Shown here: one piece after another, positions 7,632 to 16,927 of the stretch | How the letters are laid out: every line of letters starts with the position of its first letter | How positions within the stretch are numbered: position 1 is the stretch's first letter | Assembly: GCF_017302985.1 (NCBI RefSeq) | Contig: NZ_JAFIMU010000006.1 | Span: 1 to 64,000 of the forward strand | Direction of reading: 5' to 3' | DNA from: Corallococcus macrosporus | GTDB taxonomy: Bacteria > Myxococcota > Myxococcia > Myxococcales > Myxococcaceae | Length of the DNA stretch: 64,000 nt | Translations under genes and position numbers: made by a program | The notes under the pieces: model-generated | Database searches by the model: none | Told to the model about the DNA's origin: nothing | Seen by the model: only the letters and a program-made list of their open reading frames with translations

Positions 7632-8270
7632 ATGCGCCGTGTTTTTCCGCTCGCTGGATTCTTCGCGTTGGCCTGTGCCTGCGGACTGCCGGCGCACGTG
7701 CGGCCGGTGCCCGCGGGCTCGCTCGCGCTGGAGGCGGGCGTGGGAGGACCGGCCGTCCGGCTGGAGGGCACGCCCGTTCCCCTGCCCCTGTCCACATTGG
7801 GCGCGAGCTACGGGTTGAACGACCGGTGGGACGTGAGCGCCCATGCGCACCTCACGCCGCTGCTCCTGGGTGTCGCGGGGATGGATGTAGGGACGACGTG
7901 GCTCGCGCTGGAGCAGGACGGCGCGAGGCCAGCGGTGGCGCTCACGGGGCGGGGCTACGTGTTCAGCGACCTGGACACGGGAGCGCTCTTCCACGGCGAA
8001 GCGACGGCCGCGGCGAGCTGGCTCCTGCGCGAGCGCTTCCTCACGTACGTCTCCGGATCCGCGCTGTACGACGTGGTGGAGTCGGACGTGCTGTGGTCCC
8101 TGGCCGCCGGGACACGGGTGCCCTTCGGTCGCTTCGCGCTCCAGCTCGAGCTGGGCTGGTATGGGCCTGACTACGACGCGTCGGTCGCGGGCGCGGAATG
8201 GCTCACGCCGGGAGGCCACGGGGCGTTGGGATTGGTGCTGGGAGGCAGCTATCGCTTCGGCGGTCCGTGA
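7632..8270 (+). CDS. Putative envelope beta-barrel or lipoprotein
   Basis: A 212-residue exported protein with a signal peptide (MRRVFPLAGFFALACACG) that may end in a lipobox near C15/C17. The rest alternates short hydrophobic strands with turns (ALEAGVGGPAVRLEG, WDVSAHAHLTPLLLG, FALQLELGWYGPDYDA) and ends LGLVLGGSYRFGGP, the look of an outer-membrane barrel repeat. I recognise no named family. Its stop is nine bases from the convergent stop of the next gene, with no terminator hairpin visible between them. Confidence 0.6.
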   Translation: MRRVFPLAGFFALACACGLPAHVRPVPAGSLALEAGVGGPAVRLEGTPVPLPLSTLGASYGLNDRWDVSAHAHLTPLLLGVAGMDVGTTWLALEQDGARPAVALTGRGYVFSDLDTGALFHGEATAAASWLLRERFLTYVSGSALYDVVESDVLWSLAAGTRVPFGRFALQLELGWYGPDYDASVAGAEWLTPGGHGALGLVLGGSYRFGGP

Positions 8271-8279
8271 GGGCGCGCA

Positions 8280-10739
8280 TCACAGCGGCGCTGTCACTCG
8301 CACGCGGCTGAAGCCCTCCCGGTCGTCCTCGAAGAGCACGACGCCCGCGCTGCCATCCGGACGCGCGACCACACGGGGCCGCGTGAGCTGGTTGGGGGAT
8401 GCGCCCGTGTCATCGAGCCGCGCCGCTTCGACGATGGCCGTGCTGGAGACCGGTGACATGCGCGCGGCGCCGAGCCCGCTCTTGCCCGGTGACAGGTCCT
8501 GGAACACGACGCGCCATTCTCCGTGAACCCAGGCCGCGGAGGGACGGAAGCGGCTGAGGAAGGCACCGGTGTCCGCGCCTCCGGCCACGAGCGGCAGTGG
8601 CTCCCAGCCGCCCTGCACCCGCCGCGCACCGCGCACGTCGTGGTGGCCGCGCCGTTCGCGAAGGTCGTCCCAGACGAGCACCGCGCTTCCATCCGGCGCG
8701 GAGGTGAGGCGGGGATCGCTCGCCAGGGTTTCCGCTTCGCAGGGCGGTGACACCTGCGTCGCGGCCGGGAACCCCTCCCCTGCCGACACCGCCGCGTACA
8801 CCTCCCAGTCCCGCTCGCGGTAGTCGATCCACGCCACCGCCCAGCCTTCCGCGGTCCACGTCACCGAGGGTTGAAGCTGCGAACCTTCGTGCCGGTCGGT
8901 CACGGTGTTGCCCGAATCCACGCGCGTTGACGCGGTCCACGTGCGGCCACCGTCCTCCGAGCGGGCAAGACGCACCTTGGGCGCGAGCCCTTCACGGAAG
9001 TCCGTCCAGGCCAGTGCCACGCGCGCGGTCCCTGGCTGCCATGCGAGCGCCGCCTCCCACTGGGACGCGCTCGTCGCCTCTACCCGTGAGGCCGTGCCGA
9101 AGCTCACGGCGCCGTCCGTGGAGGCCGCCGTCCACAGCACTTCCCTCTCCCCTTCACGCGCCTCCTGCCACGCGACGACCACGCTGCCCGAGGGCCCGGC
9201 GGCGATCGCCGGACGCAGCTGCCTGCCCGGGCCCGGTGACACCGGATGCGCGGGCGTGAACGTGCGACCATCGTCATCACTGGTCGCGACGTACACCTGG
9301 GGCCTTCCCTCCCGCGCATCGCTGAAGACCACGTAGAGCCGTCCCGCGGCGTCGTACGCACCCTCGGGATTCGTCTGCGCGCCCACGTCCACGGGAGCCA
9401 CCTCCTGCGACGGCAGCCCTTCACCCGCGGGCGTCACCGTCAGCTTCGGCCCGGGCCCCTCCCCCGCGAGCGACAGGTCCGCCGCGATGACGCTTCGCGC
9501 ATACTTTCCTTCGCGCTTGTCCCCTGAACCCGGCGCCAGCGCATCGCCTGCTTCGCGCAGCCGAGCCTGCCGTGCCTCCAGGGACAGCGACGCGTCCGAC
9601 TCCGCTGGATCCGCGAACGTCCACGGCCCCACGTCCACCCAGCCCGTCAATGGCCGGCTGCCCACGAAGGCACGCGGCTCCTGATCCGGCGTGCCCTTGC
9701 GCGTCACCCAGACCTGACCGTCGAACACGAGGTCGAAGAGGTTTCCGCTCAGCATCGGCGCCGCGCTGTACCGGAAGCCCCGGTACTTCTGCGTGTGGCT
9801 CCACCCCGACGAAAGGATGGTGTCCGGCAACCAGCCGCCCTGCGAGTCCTCGATGGTCCAGCCGCTCCAGGCCTCCGGCTGCGTCACCAGCTCCGTGCCC
9901 ACGTCCTCCAGCCGCTGCAGGAACGGCGCATAGAACGCATCGCGCGAGATGGCCGCGCCCACCTTTCCGAACGGCAGCGTGAACGTCCCTAGCCGCTCCA
10001 GCGACGCGGGGCTCAGGTCCAGGTCCTCCTCCTCCGTCTCCGTGAGGTAGACCTTGTCGCTCCGGCCCGCGAGCGTCCCGTCCGGCGCGTACAGCAGCGC
10101 CGCGTTGAAGCACTCCGGCCCGGTGGCCACGTACGCGGGCTCGTCCCCGTCCGCGTCCACGTCGCGGAACAGGTCCACCGAGTCCGAGTCGCGGCGCGCA
10201 TCCACGTACGGCACGTTCGCGGACGTCATCACCCACACGCCGTAGCGCTTCGCGATGCCGCCGAACGTGCGCTCCATGGCCCGCCACGCCGGGTCCCCCA
10301 GCGCGAGCGTCAGCGACCGGGCCGCGGAGATGCCCGGGAAGCGCCGCCGGTATTCGTCCGCCGCTCGGAACCACCCCGAGTACATCGCGTTGAACGCCAG
10401 CTCCGTGTCGCCCGCCCCCCGCGCCAGCATCGCGCGGCGCCCGGTGAACCAGGCGAGGAGCCCCGCGTCCTCCGGGAACAGCAGGAGATTCGGCCGCGTC
10501 GCGGACAGGCACGGCGCGATGCGCACCACGTCCTCGCGGAAGGACGCGTCGAAGTGCTCCAGCGAGGCCGCGTCGTCCAGCGTGAAGGCGTGCCCCACCA
10601 CGAAGACGCGCACGTTGCCCGTGTCCGTGAAGGACAGGCCGCACACCGTGTCGTCCTCCGGCACGGTCGGCCCGCCACAGGCCAGGGTGGCGAGGGTTCC
10701 CAGCAGCACCGCGAACGCGAAGGATGACCGGCAGCGCAT
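8280..10739 (-). CDS. Lipoprotein: nitrilase-like domain fused to BNR/sialidase-like propeller
   Basis: An 819-residue lipoprotein (lipobox LATLAC, C21). Residues about 40-390 resemble the carbon-nitrogen hydrolase fold: LLLFPEDAG gives Glu90, SDKVYLTETEEE gives Lys229, and KVGAAISRDAFY aligns with the family's nucleophile motif ICYD. The third triad member, normally Cys, is therefore Ser265. From about 450 onward, repeats such as SDARE, TSDDDGRTF, RSEDGGRTW and WIDYRERDW match bacterial neuraminidase (BNR/Asp-box) propellers. I know no standard protein with this pairing. The start is ATG at 10739; the frame continues to 11258 but there overlaps the FKBP gene and is a shadow. It is divergent from that gene by 42 bases. 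Confidence 0.75.
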   Translation of the reverse strand: MRCRSSFAFAVLLGTLATLACGGPTVPEDDTVCGLSFTDTGNVRVFVVGHAFTLDDAASLEHFDASFREDVVRIAPCLSATRPNLLLFPEDAGLLAWFTGRRAMLARGAGDTELAFNAMYSGWFRAADEYRRRFPGISAARSLTLALGDPAWRAMERTFGGIAKRYGVWVMTSANVPYVDARRDSDSVDLFRDVDADGDEPAYVATGPECFNAALLYAPDGTLAGRSDKVYLTETEEEDLDLSPASLERLGTFTLPFGKVGAAISRDAFYAPFLQRLEDVGTELVTQPEAWSGWTIEDSQGGWLPDTILSSGWSHTQKYRGFRYSAAPMLSGNLFDLVFDGQVWVTRKGTPDQEPRAFVGSRPLTGWVDVGPWTFADPAESDASLSLEARQARLREAGDALAPGSGDKREGKYARSVIAADLSLAGEGPGPKLTVTPAGEGLPSQEVAPVDVGAQTNPEGAYDAAGRLYVVFSDAREGRPQVYVATSDDDGRTFTPAHPVSPGPGRQLRPAIAAGPSGSVVVAWQEAREGEREVLWTAASTDGAVSFGTASRVEATSASQWEAALAWQPGTARVALAWTDFREGLAPKVRLARSEDGGRTWTASTRVDSGNTVTDRHEGSQLQPSVTWTAEGWAVAWIDYRERDWEVYAAVSAGEGFPAATQVSPPCEAETLASDPRLTSAPDGSAVLVWDDLRERRGHHDVRGARRVQGGWEPLPLVAGGADTGAFLSRFRPSAAWVHGEWRVVFQDLSPGKSGLGAARMSPVSSTAIVEAARLDDTGASPNQLTRPRVVARPDGSAGVVLFEDDREGFSRVRVTAPL

Positions 10740-10748
10740 GAGCGGCCC

Positions 10749-10754
10749 TATAGT
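10749..10754 (+). promoter_or_regulatory. Candidate -10 box for the FKBP gene
   Basis: TATAGT lies 27 bases before the FKBP ATG, inside the 42-base divergent gap. No convincing -35 lies 17 bases upstream, where the sequence is already coding for the opposite gene, so this is tentative. Confidence 0.35.
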
Positions 10755-10781
10755 CCCCCCATTCTCGTGAAAGGCGGAAGC

Positions 10782-11525
10782 ATGCGTATGCAGTGGAAGG
10801 CGGCCCTGGTCCTGATGCTCGGTGCTCCGGGTCTGGCCCTGGCCCAGGCCCCGACGAAGCCCTCCAAGCCGGCCGCCGCGCCGGAGGCCCCCGCGAAGGC
10901 CGCCCCTGCCCAGGCGCCCCTGGAGCTCAAGACGGATGAGCAGAAGGCCATCTATTCGGTCGGCATCTCGCTGGGCCAAAGCGTGACGGCGCTCGCGCTC
11001 ACCCTGGAAGAGGTGCAGCTGCTCCAGCGCGGCCTCCAGGACTCGCTCAGCGGCACCGCGCCCGCGGTGGATCCGAAGGAGTACGGCCCGAAGATTCAAG
11101 CGCTCGCCAAGGAGCGCATGGCCAAGGTCAACGTCGCCACGCTGGACCGCGCCTCCAAGGAGCCCGGCGCCACGCGGCTGCCTTCCGGCGTCATCTACCG
11201 GGAGCTCAAGGCCGGCACCGGCAAGTCCCCCCGCGCCATCGACACCGTGAAGGTGCACTACCAGGGCACGCTGGTGGACGGCACGGAGTTCGACAGCTCC
11301 TACAAGCGCGGCATGGCGGTGGAGTTCCCGCTCAACGGCGTCATCCCCTGCTGGACCCAGGGCGTGCAGAAGATGAAGGTCGGCGGCAAGGCGAAGCTCA
11401 CCTGCCCCGGGAGCACCGCCTACGGCGAGCGTCCGCCCACGGGCTCGCGCATCCCGCCCAACGCCGTGCTCACCTTCGAGGTGGAGCTGGTGGACATCCC
11501 CGGCAACACCGCCGTCACGCCGTAG
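10782..11525 (+). CDS. FKBP-type peptidyl-prolyl cis-trans isomerase, exported
   Basis: A 247-residue periplasmic or outer-membrane proline isomerase of the FkpA/Mip type. A signal peptide (MRMQWKAALVLMLGAPGLALAQ) is followed by an Ala/Pro-rich linker and an FKBP-N dimerisation-like domain (about 45-130, starting TDEQKAIYSVGISLGQSV). The FKBP catalytic domain follows (about 140-240) with YRELKAGTG, VKVHYQGTLVDGTEFDSSY, VIPCWTQGVQKMKVGGKAKL and GSRIPPNAVLTFEVEL. The ATG at 10782 was preferred to GTG at 10767; ATG at 10788 is also possible. FkpA is usually longer in its FKBP-N coil. It stands alone and probably helps outer-membrane protein folding. Confidence 0.92.
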   Translation: MRMQWKAALVLMLGAPGLALAQAPTKPSKPAAAPEAPAKAAPAQAPLELKTDEQKAIYSVGISLGQSVTALALTLEEVQLLQRGLQDSLSGTAPAVDPKEYGPKIQALAKERMAKVNVATLDRASKEPGATRLPSGVIYRELKAGTGKSPRAIDTVKVHYQGTLVDGTEFDSSYKRGMAVEFPLNGVIPCWTQGVQKMKVGGKAKLTCPGSTAYGERPPTGSRIPPNAVLTFEVELVDIPGNTAVTP

Positions 11526-15031: not shown

Positions 15032-16882
15032 TCACCATCCGCACTTCTGGCCCTTGTTCTGCTCCTGGAGCCAACGACGCAGCGGGGCGAAGTACTCCAG
15101 CATGGGCGTGGCATCCATCTGGCGGGTGCCCGTCATCGCCGCCAGGGCGTCCGGCCACGGCTTGCTCGCGCCCATCTCCAGCATGGCCTGCAGGCGCTGG
15201 CCGGCGGCCTTGTTGCCGTAGATGGAGCACTCGTTGAGCGCGCCCTTGTGGCCCGCGGCCTCGCACAGCGCCTTGTGGAACTGGAACTGGAGGATCCGCG
15301 CGAGGAAGTAGCGCGTGTACGGCACGTTGGCGGGGACGTGGTACTTGGCGCCCGCGTCGAAGTCCTGCTCCGTGCGCGCCACCGGGGCGGCCACGCCCTG
15401 GTACTTCGTGCGCAGCGCCCACCAGCTCTTGTTGTAGTCCGCCGGCTTCACCTTCCCGCTGAACACGTCCCAGCGCCACTGGTCCACCAGCAGGCCGAAG
15501 GGCAGGAAGGCCACCTTCTCCAGCGCGTCCTTCAACTGGAGGTTGATGACGTTCTTGTCGTTCTTCTCCACCGCGTTGAGCAGGCCCGCCTGCTGGAGGT
15601 AGGCCGGGGTGATGGAGAGCGTGAGCGCGTCGCCAATGGCCTCGTGGAAGCCGTCGTTGGCGCCCGCCTGAAAGAGGACGGGGAGCTTGTAGTAGTACGT
15701 GTAGTAGTAGTTGTGGCCCAGCTCGTGGTGGATGGTGACCAGGTCCTCCTCGGTGGGCTTGATGCACATCTTGATGCGCAGGTCGTTGTCGTACGTCACG
15801 TCCCAGGCGGACGCGTGGCAGACGACGTCGCGGTCGCGGGGCTTGGTGAACTGCGAGCGCTCCCAGAAGGTCTGCGGCAGCGGCTTGAGGCCCAGCGAGG
15901 TGAAGAACTTCTCACCCAGCTTCACCATCTTCTGCGCGTCGTAGCCCTGCTTCACCAGGGTGCTGTTCACGTCCAGGCTGGCCTGGCCGGGGAACGGCTC
16001 CACCAGCGGGTAGATGTTGTTCCACTCCTGCGCCCACATGTTGCCCAGCAGGTGCGCGGGGATGGGCTTGCCGGCGGGCACCTTCGCCTCGCCGTACTGC
16101 TTCGCCAGCCGGCCGCGCACGTAGCAGTGCAGCTCGTCGTACATGGGCTTCACCTGGCCCCAGAGCCGCTGCGCCTCCTGCTCGAACTCCGCGGGCGTCA
16201 TGTCGTAGGACGACCGCCAGAGCGTGCCCAGGTCGTTGAAGCCGATGTCCTTCGCGCCCGCGTTGGAGAGGTCCACCAGCTGCGTGTAGAGCGGGCGCAT
16301 GGGGCGGCTGACGGCGTGCCAGCCCGTCCACGCGTCCAGCAGCTCGTCCGCGTTGCGGCTCTCCGCCATCACGTCGGACAGCTCCTCCAGGTCGCGGCAC
16401 TTCCCCTTGCCGTCCTTGCCGCAGTACTTGCCCTTGCCGTAGAGGCCCTCCAGCTTCGCGGCGGTGGCGGCCAGCTCCGCGCGCTGCTTGGCGTTCGCCG
16501 GCGCGGGCAGCGTCTGGGACACGCGCAGCAGGTGCAGCATGCGCGCGGTGTCCGCGTCCAGCTTCAGCCCGTCGAAGCGGCGCGAGTCCTTGATGGCGTT
16601 GTTGACGTAGGCCATCACCTCTTCGTTGACGGTGGCGGCGTTCCGTTCCGTATCGTCGGTGATGTACGTGCTCTTGATCCAATCGGCGGTGGCCTGACGG
16701 GTCCAGAGCTGCTTGAGGTCCGCGTTGAGCTTGTCGACGAACTGCTTCGCCTCCGCGGGCGTGGCCTTCGCGGCAGGAGCGGGCGTTGCCTTCGCGGCCG
16801 GCGTCTGCGCGCTGGCGGCGGGCGCCGCGAGCGACAGGGCGGCCAGGGCCGCGCGCATCAGGGACTGGGGTGAGCGGGTCAT
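15032..16882 (-). CDS. M2 family (ACE-like) peptidyl-dipeptidase
   Basis: An exported zinc peptidase of 616 residues related to angiotensin-converting enzyme, which removes C-terminal dipeptides. A signal peptide (MTRSPQSLMRAALAALSLAAPAASA) precedes an Ala/Pro-rich linker. The active site is H386-E387-L388-G389-H390 with E414 (DGFHEAIGDALTLS) as third ligand, exactly the 28-residue spacing of ACE. The substrate-side motif VCHASAWDV and the C-terminal PYTRYFLARILQFQFH are also conserved. The ATG at 16882 is preferred over GTG at 16894. It follows the UV endonuclease gene by 45 bases on the same strand, though no functional tie is evident. Confidence 0.93.
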   Translation of the reverse strand: MTRSPQSLMRAALAALSLAAPAASAQTPAAKATPAPAAKATPAEAKQFVDKLNADLKQLWTRQATADWIKSTYITDDTERNAATVNEEVMAYVNNAIKDSRRFDGLKLDADTARMLHLLRVSQTLPAPANAKQRAELAATAAKLEGLYGKGKYCGKDGKGKCRDLEELSDVMAESRNADELLDAWTGWHAVSRPMRPLYTQLVDLSNAGAKDIGFNDLGTLWRSSYDMTPAEFEQEAQRLWGQVKPMYDELHCYVRGRLAKQYGEAKVPAGKPIPAHLLGNMWAQEWNNIYPLVEPFPGQASLDVNSTLVKQGYDAQKMVKLGEKFFTSLGLKPLPQTFWERSQFTKPRDRDVVCHASAWDVTYDNDLRIKMCIKPTEEDLVTIHHELGHNYYYTYYYKLPVLFQAGANDGFHEAIGDALTLSITPAYLQQAGLLNAVEKNDKNVINLQLKDALEKVAFLPFGLLVDQWRWDVFSGKVKPADYNKSWWALRTKYQGVAAPVARTEQDFDAGAKYHVPANVPYTRYFLARILQFQFHKALCEAAGHKGALNECSIYGNKAAGQRLQAMLEMGASKPWPDALAAMTGTRQMDATPMLEYFAPLRRWLQEQNKGQKCGW

Positions 16883-16927
16883 GGGCGCGGACACTATGGG
16901 AAGTGCCCTGCCCTCGCACCCGCGAAG

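Follow-up and report, generated by a model that had tools for sequence, protein, structure and literature searches.

Serine at the nucleophile position of a nitrilase-type domain fused to a BNR-like propeller in myxobacteria: a possible serine hydrolase

To our knowledge nitrilases are held to depend on a cysteine. The initial annotation had described, in the stretch of 64,000 nucleotides of Corallococcus macrosporus DNA which was analyzed here as a whole (the window), a gene for a nitrilase-like domain which retains the glutamate and the lysine of the triad and reads serine in place of the cysteine. The locus therefore raises the question whether such a protein could still be a hydrolase, now using serine, or whether the pocket has been kept and the turnover lost. 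The gene, its parts and the adjoining partner gene are the following:

8280..10739, minus strand: gene of 819 aa with signal peptide, nitrilase-type domain (Ser at the nucleophile position), linker and BNR-like propeller
10677..10739, minus strand: predicted signal peptide up to the presumed lipidated Cys21, with the off-consensus lipobox TLAC, from the sequence
10641..10643, minus strand: C33, invariant; C77 lies at 10509-10511 and is a possible disulfide partner
9660..10616, minus strand: nitrilase-type domain, residues 42-360, by Pfam, profile comparison and alignment
10470..10472, minus strand: E90 (FPED), general-base position, by alignment
10053..10055, minus strand: K229 (DKVYL), lysine position, by alignment
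10029..10034, minus strand: E236-E237, an invariant pair by alignment, with a presumed role
9945..9947, minus strand: S265 (ISRDAFY), position of the catalytic Cys by alignment, codon TCG
8283..9407, minus strand: BNR-like propeller, residues 445-819, with probably about 6-7 blades
7632..8270, plus strand: lipoprotein-like partner gene of 212 aa, convergent, the two stop codons being separated by 9 bases

The open reading frame of 819 aa is real. It runs on the minus strand from an ATG at 10739 to the stop codon at 8280-8282, and in comparisons with four close relatives dN/dS lies at 0.12-0.25 in residues 22-360, at 0.16-0.20 in the remainder of the fusion protein and at 0.07-0.11 in the partner gene. 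The window genes are 87-93% identical in C. exercitus, C. llansteffanensis, C. carmarthensis and one Myxococcaceae MAG. Upstream (10740-10787) the starts of the fusion gene and of a divergent FKBP-type isomerase gene are only about 27-48 bases apart, so that the two promoters must overlap with the start regions or have them in common. At 15035-16894 there is a full-length Peptidase_M2 gene (angiotensin-converting-enzyme family), a relative of which is also found near the module of fusion and partner gene in the loci L063, L064, L067 and L070.

The N-terminal domain is indeed nitrilase-like. All eight domain sequences match the Pfam family CN_hydrolase (PF00795) with E up to 0.01; the full-length window protein, with 22.8 bits, falls just below the cut-off of 23.2 and the domain alone, with 24.4 bits, just above it. 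An hhalign comparison of the profile of the serine family with that of a lone paralogue gave a probability of 99.5 and placed S265 on the cysteine of the paralogue, and the profile match to 2w1v showed the same register. 2w1v is NIT2, which like YLR351C (1f89) is a nitrilase homologue. The part from the lysine to the nucleophile is matched in NIT2 by the serine family and in both NIT2 and YLR351C by the paralogue, with weak similarity (E 1e-4 to 1e-2); these two proteins differ from the fusion protein in having a cysteine nucleophile and no fusion.

The register was also examined in an alignment with 34 other CN-hydrolases, namely the five others present in the own genome (E up to 0.01) and 29 phylum-wide enzymes, the latter being the best-scoring loci from 58 genomes and therefore leaning to canonical members. 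E90 falls on glutamate in all 33 sequences spanning this position, K229 on lysine in 34/34 and S265 on the cysteine in 34/34, so that the triad positions proposed in the initial annotation, including the serine in ISRD, have been borne out. The residue following the nucleophile is arginine here, as against the usual tyrosine. An alternative cysteine was looked for and none aligns at the nucleophile position; C33 and C77, both near the N-terminus, are the sole invariant cysteines besides that of the lipobox, which rules out another cysteine as nucleophile. In an exported protein C33 and C77 could form a disulfide. We are less sure that E237 is the second glutamate of the tetrad: it falls on a glutamate which is invariant in 46/46 paralogues, whereas the wider set of 34 CN-hydrolases lends no support to the register of E236-E237 (glutamate in 3/34 at E236 and in 1/34 at E237, gaps in 16). 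For the alpha-beta-beta-alpha sandwich expected of the superfamily, an AlphaFold2 model of the domain was calculated from only five near-identical sequences and had a mean pLDDT of 32. In place of the catalytic cysteine expected for PF00795 all ten orthologues have serine and, judged by its sequence, the domain is a descendant of the nitrilase superfamily and no cysteine nitrilase or amidase.

These ten orthologues, which are all those covering the site, read ISRDAFY throughout, down to about 51% full-length identity. Five belong to the genus of the window, four (G120, G025, G158 and G017) to the same family and one (G037) to another family; the sequence from G027, which ends with its contig and extends to about residue 178, was excluded from the count. 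Since the codon for S265 is TCG in six cases, TCA in two and TCC in two, three synonymous codons encode one amino acid, the codon having drifted under a constant residue. A one-off mutation or a sequencing error is ruled out by the serine in 10/10 orthologues. In eight of the ten the positions of the motifs FPED, DK, EE and ISRDAFY are all invariant (15/15), compared to 106/319 (33%) of the columns of the domain (residues 42-360; hypergeometric 3e-8), where the set of 15 positions follows known nitrilase motifs and was fixed after the alignment had been viewed. No other part of the domain is conserved as well as these pocket motifs.

Within the genus of the window the fusion gene is absent in 11 of 16 genomes, together with all or most of the partner gene, while the FKBP gene is kept in 16/16. 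In the 11 genomes the FKBP gene and a PilZ gene now adjoin, and in 7/11 a 5′ remnant of the partner gene is left which reaches residue 22 to 96. A search of these 11 genomes for remnants of the fusion gene (E up to 1e-3) gave none. These seven deletion scars lie between the PilZ and FKBP genes in the loci L165, L168, L170, L173, L176, L177 and L179. The adjoining FKBP and PilZ genes and the 5′ remnants of the partner point to an ancestral module which was later deleted in the genus; the remnant lengths differ and several deletions may have occurred. The module is thus dispensable, which would fit a serine that arose by chance in a single lineage and a domain that does no more than carry the propeller as a stalk. 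Such a passive role is nevertheless hard to reconcile with 15 motif positions remaining invariant over about 50% divergence and in two families, and with the dN/dS of 0.12-0.25 for residues 22-360, and we consider it very improbable.

A plasmid or phage origin found no support: tblastn against the plasmid collection gave no match, the profile search of the viral contigs yielded no relative of the domain, and there was no match in PHROGs or PADLOC. A scan of genome contigs with peptides of the window protein reached close relatives only; within the phylum, 195 genomes were covered with the profile. Among the matches listed from titles and abstract openings of open-licence papers, neither the fusion nor a bacterial E-K-S nitrilase family was named.

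The sister clade of the serine family in the tree (support 97/99, with only four paralogue rows and a long-branch warning) is the lone CN-hydrolase of about 364 aa, which in the own genome lies at G000:C7:694760-695722 (L002). In this paralogue the Glu and Lys motifs are as far apart as in the fusion protein, separated by the same long stretch, and the two proteins are 25-31% identical, but the paralogue has no propeller in its frame of 364 aa and has serine in 0/46 cases. The nucleophile position is occupied by cysteine in 31/46 and by glycine in 15/46 paralogues; the best 26 places by score all have cysteine and the 20 further places comprise 5 with cysteine and 15 with glycine. Glutamate, lysine and the second glutamate are kept in every paralogue row covering them, including 15/15 of the glycine rows. 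The latter (GYD) all stem from one genus, g41 (L182, L185, L186 and L188-L199, except L187), and the paralogue tree needs two changes between cysteine and glycine. In the own genome and in G005 the surroundings of the cysteine paralogue (loci L072 and L073) contain gatB-, gatA- and gatC-like genes beside it, names which we assigned presumptively from the first residues.

Glycine is unable to be a nucleophile, and the glycine paralogues thus represent an apparent nitrilase pseudoenzyme beside active-looking cysteine copies. Because they keep glutamate and lysine, a retained Glu-Lys pocket is no proof of activity, and because the cysteine was lost not only in the fusion protein but also in the paralogue, it has been given up more than once in this lineage. 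The fusion protein could likewise be a pseudoenzyme, as the initial annotation had suggested, with the nitrilase pocket kept, the turnover lost and the domain acting together with the propeller as a ligand-binding sensor or adhesin. We regard this as a serious possibility, though one somewhat short of an even chance. The glycine paralogues demonstrate that conserved members without a nucleophile exist, and the arginine instead of tyrosine after the nucleophile points in the same direction. On the other hand, the residue fixed in the serine family is the only one which could stand in chemically for cysteine, and its motifs are better conserved than those of the glycine paralogues: the same 15 places are invariant in 10/15 cases in the glycine and in 9/15 in the cysteine paralogues, in sets which differ in size and depth. 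The serine clade is set apart both by its substitute, the one residue which could do the work of cysteine, and by its fully invariant motifs.

A further argument concerns the partner gene. Its product starts with a signal-like stretch ending in an invariant Cys-Gly; it gave no match in Pfam, NCBIfam, PHROGs and PADLOC at the thresholds used, its profile gave no match of note in the PDB, and the AlphaFold2 model, again from only five near-identical sequences, had a mean pLDDT of 28. G037 and G158 are distant genomes in which the partner is the only neighbor kept within the compared stretches, the other synteny with the window being gone. With a profile of the partner we found 35 places in 32 of the 195 phylum genomes, which comprise 9 of the fusion type, 25 of a hydrolase type and one remnant in G008. 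All nine genomes with a complete fusion gene have the partner tail-to-tail with it (G017, which runs into a contig end, was excluded from this count); the gap between the coding parts is 2-155 bases in seven loci, and G015 and G006 have the same layout by coordinates. Wherever a complete partner gene has no adjoining fusion gene, an alpha/beta hydrolase gene lies next to it in the same direction (25/25).

The hydrolases of these pairs have GxSxG in 25/25 cases, and among the 19 which were aligned serine and histidine are invariant and aspartate is present in 18. Six of the 25 were recognized only with the profile of the 19 aligned sequences, and GxSxG and HGxxD are found in 6/6 of them. All ten hydrolases which were given to Pfam score above the cut-off of PF12146. 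The neighboring genes were called by a codon-score script and some starts are trimmed. Like the fusion protein, most of the hydrolases have a lipoprotein-like N-terminus, and they stand beside the same partner family; they differ in their unrelated fold, in the use of GxSxG with Asp and His and in being co-directional with the partner. A start resembling C-x-LD-x-F is seen in the hydrolases paired with the partner family.

In the partner tree (28 rows, one of them short with 182 aa) a single change separates the two pairings with a support of 99/94, and under the midpoint root the fusion type is nested within the hydrolase type. As the hydrolase type is spread wider, the switch probably went from the hydrolase type to the fusion type. 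Since G025 and G037 each carry both types of pair, the replacement of one by the other does not account for everything. In addition, a tail-to-tail layout is a weaker sign of joint function than an operon. Still, a partner which otherwise travels with hydrolases keeping Ser, His and Asp speaks against a fusion protein that has lost its turnover.

As to the propeller noted in the initial annotation, the C-terminal part shows seven VxWxDxRxG-type repeats in the region 470-800, of which those at 487 and 594 have a strict Asp-box, and BNR_2 (PF13088) matches with E 1.9e-6, its score of 27.9 being below the cut-off of 31.4. The profile match to the BNR protein 7qy9 in the PDB is weak (E 0.057). Propellers are often binding folds, which is in keeping with a pseudoenzyme acting as sensor or adhesin.

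The proposed secretion as a lipoprotein was judged from the lipobox. Read by eye against the lipobox consensus, the orthologues covering this region have VAGC, LSAC, LAGC and LTGC, and IFGC and FTAC are one place off. A cysteine in AC or GC is present in every orthologue spanning the lipobox, canonical in four and off-consensus (TLAC) in the window protein, which is likely to be a lipoprotein.

Could a serine carry out the chemistry of a nitrilase? A comparable enzyme is the apolipoprotein N-acyltransferase Lnt, which according to the excerpts of PMC5500890 has an exo-membrane nitrilase domain with the triad E267-K335-C387; it differs from the fusion protein in being an integral membrane protein and in having a cysteine nucleophile. 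The Lnt variant Cys387Ser was reported, in the excerpts of PMC10313180, to make the N-acylated product when given the second substrate and to be caught also with unreacted lipid; an earlier paper, in the parts considered here, describes it as inactive and held as a stable oxygen ester (PMC5500888), a result which the reading as a pseudoenzyme can claim. For TEV protease the exchange of Cys to Ser is stated, in the excerpts of PMC4576821, to have cost about 10^4-fold and to have been restored by directed evolution. The only natural precedent which we found are symplectin-like proteins of cephalopods, some of which, in squid, have E-K-S triads, the serine being called a possible nucleophile in the excerpts of PMC5541922. 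They differ in being animal proteins of the biotinidase/pantetheinase family in which the serine is said to have arisen several times, and no propeller is named in these excerpts (PMC5541922). In principle an E-K-S triad is capable of nitrilase chemistry via an oxygen ester.

The Lnt data also suggest that the protein might be an acyltransferase or acyl carrier, i.e., an anchored, Lnt-like lipoprotein in which Ser265 accepts an acyl group from lipid and either keeps it in oxygen-ester linkage or transfers it further. The Cys387Ser variant is acylated, its ester is long-lived (PMC5500888, excerpts) and can proceed to product (PMC10313180, excerpts), and the predicted lipid anchor would keep the domain at the membrane. 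The sequence of 819 aa is, however, without a membrane domain of the Lnt type, and we consider this role improbable.

We therefore return to the serine hydrolase and propose, tentatively and at less than even confidence, that the protein is a hydrolase of the nitrilase superfamily with the triad Glu90-Lys229-Ser265, which is exported and probably anchored in the outer membrane. Glu90 would take the proton from Ser265, which would attack the carbonyl of an ester or amide, with the oxyanion held by Lys229 and main-chain NH groups. The acyl-enzyme would be an oxygen ester, from which water or another acceptor, activated by Glu90, would release the acyl group. The role of the propeller would be to bind whichever polymer or surface bears the substrate, and the 212-aa partner would contribute a second envelope protein to the module; elsewhere this partner accompanies an alpha/beta serine hydrolase. 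We infer the activity, the substrate, the location and the ligand of the propeller, and likewise that the partner has the same role in both pairings. The proposal draws on the serine fixed in 10/10 orthologues, the 15/15 motif positions, the partner pairings (9/9 and 25/25) and the single switch (99/94); the glycine paralogues with their retained pocket, the arginine after the nucleophile, convergent genes rather than an operon and the coexisting pair types stand against it. Weighing the link of the partner to serine hydrolases against the glycine paralogues, we rate the serine hydrolase and the pseudoenzyme level.

More speculative, and in our view rather doubtful, is the wider picture that a myxobacterial nitrilase branch repeatedly gave up its cysteine and that one clade switched cleanly to E-K-S, gained a surface-binding propeller and joined an envelope partner which elsewhere serves an alpha/beta serine hydrolase; one module would then make use of serine nucleophiles in two unrelated folds. 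One bacterial lineage has cysteine, serine and glycine on a kept Glu-Lys pocket, which makes a natural switch of the nucleophile comparable with its loss in close relatives. The partner gene, moving between the alpha/beta serine hydrolase and the fusion protein, provides an independent handle on function. Even if the serine form were dead, it would still be a well-bounded and conserved family of nitrilase pseudoenzymes.
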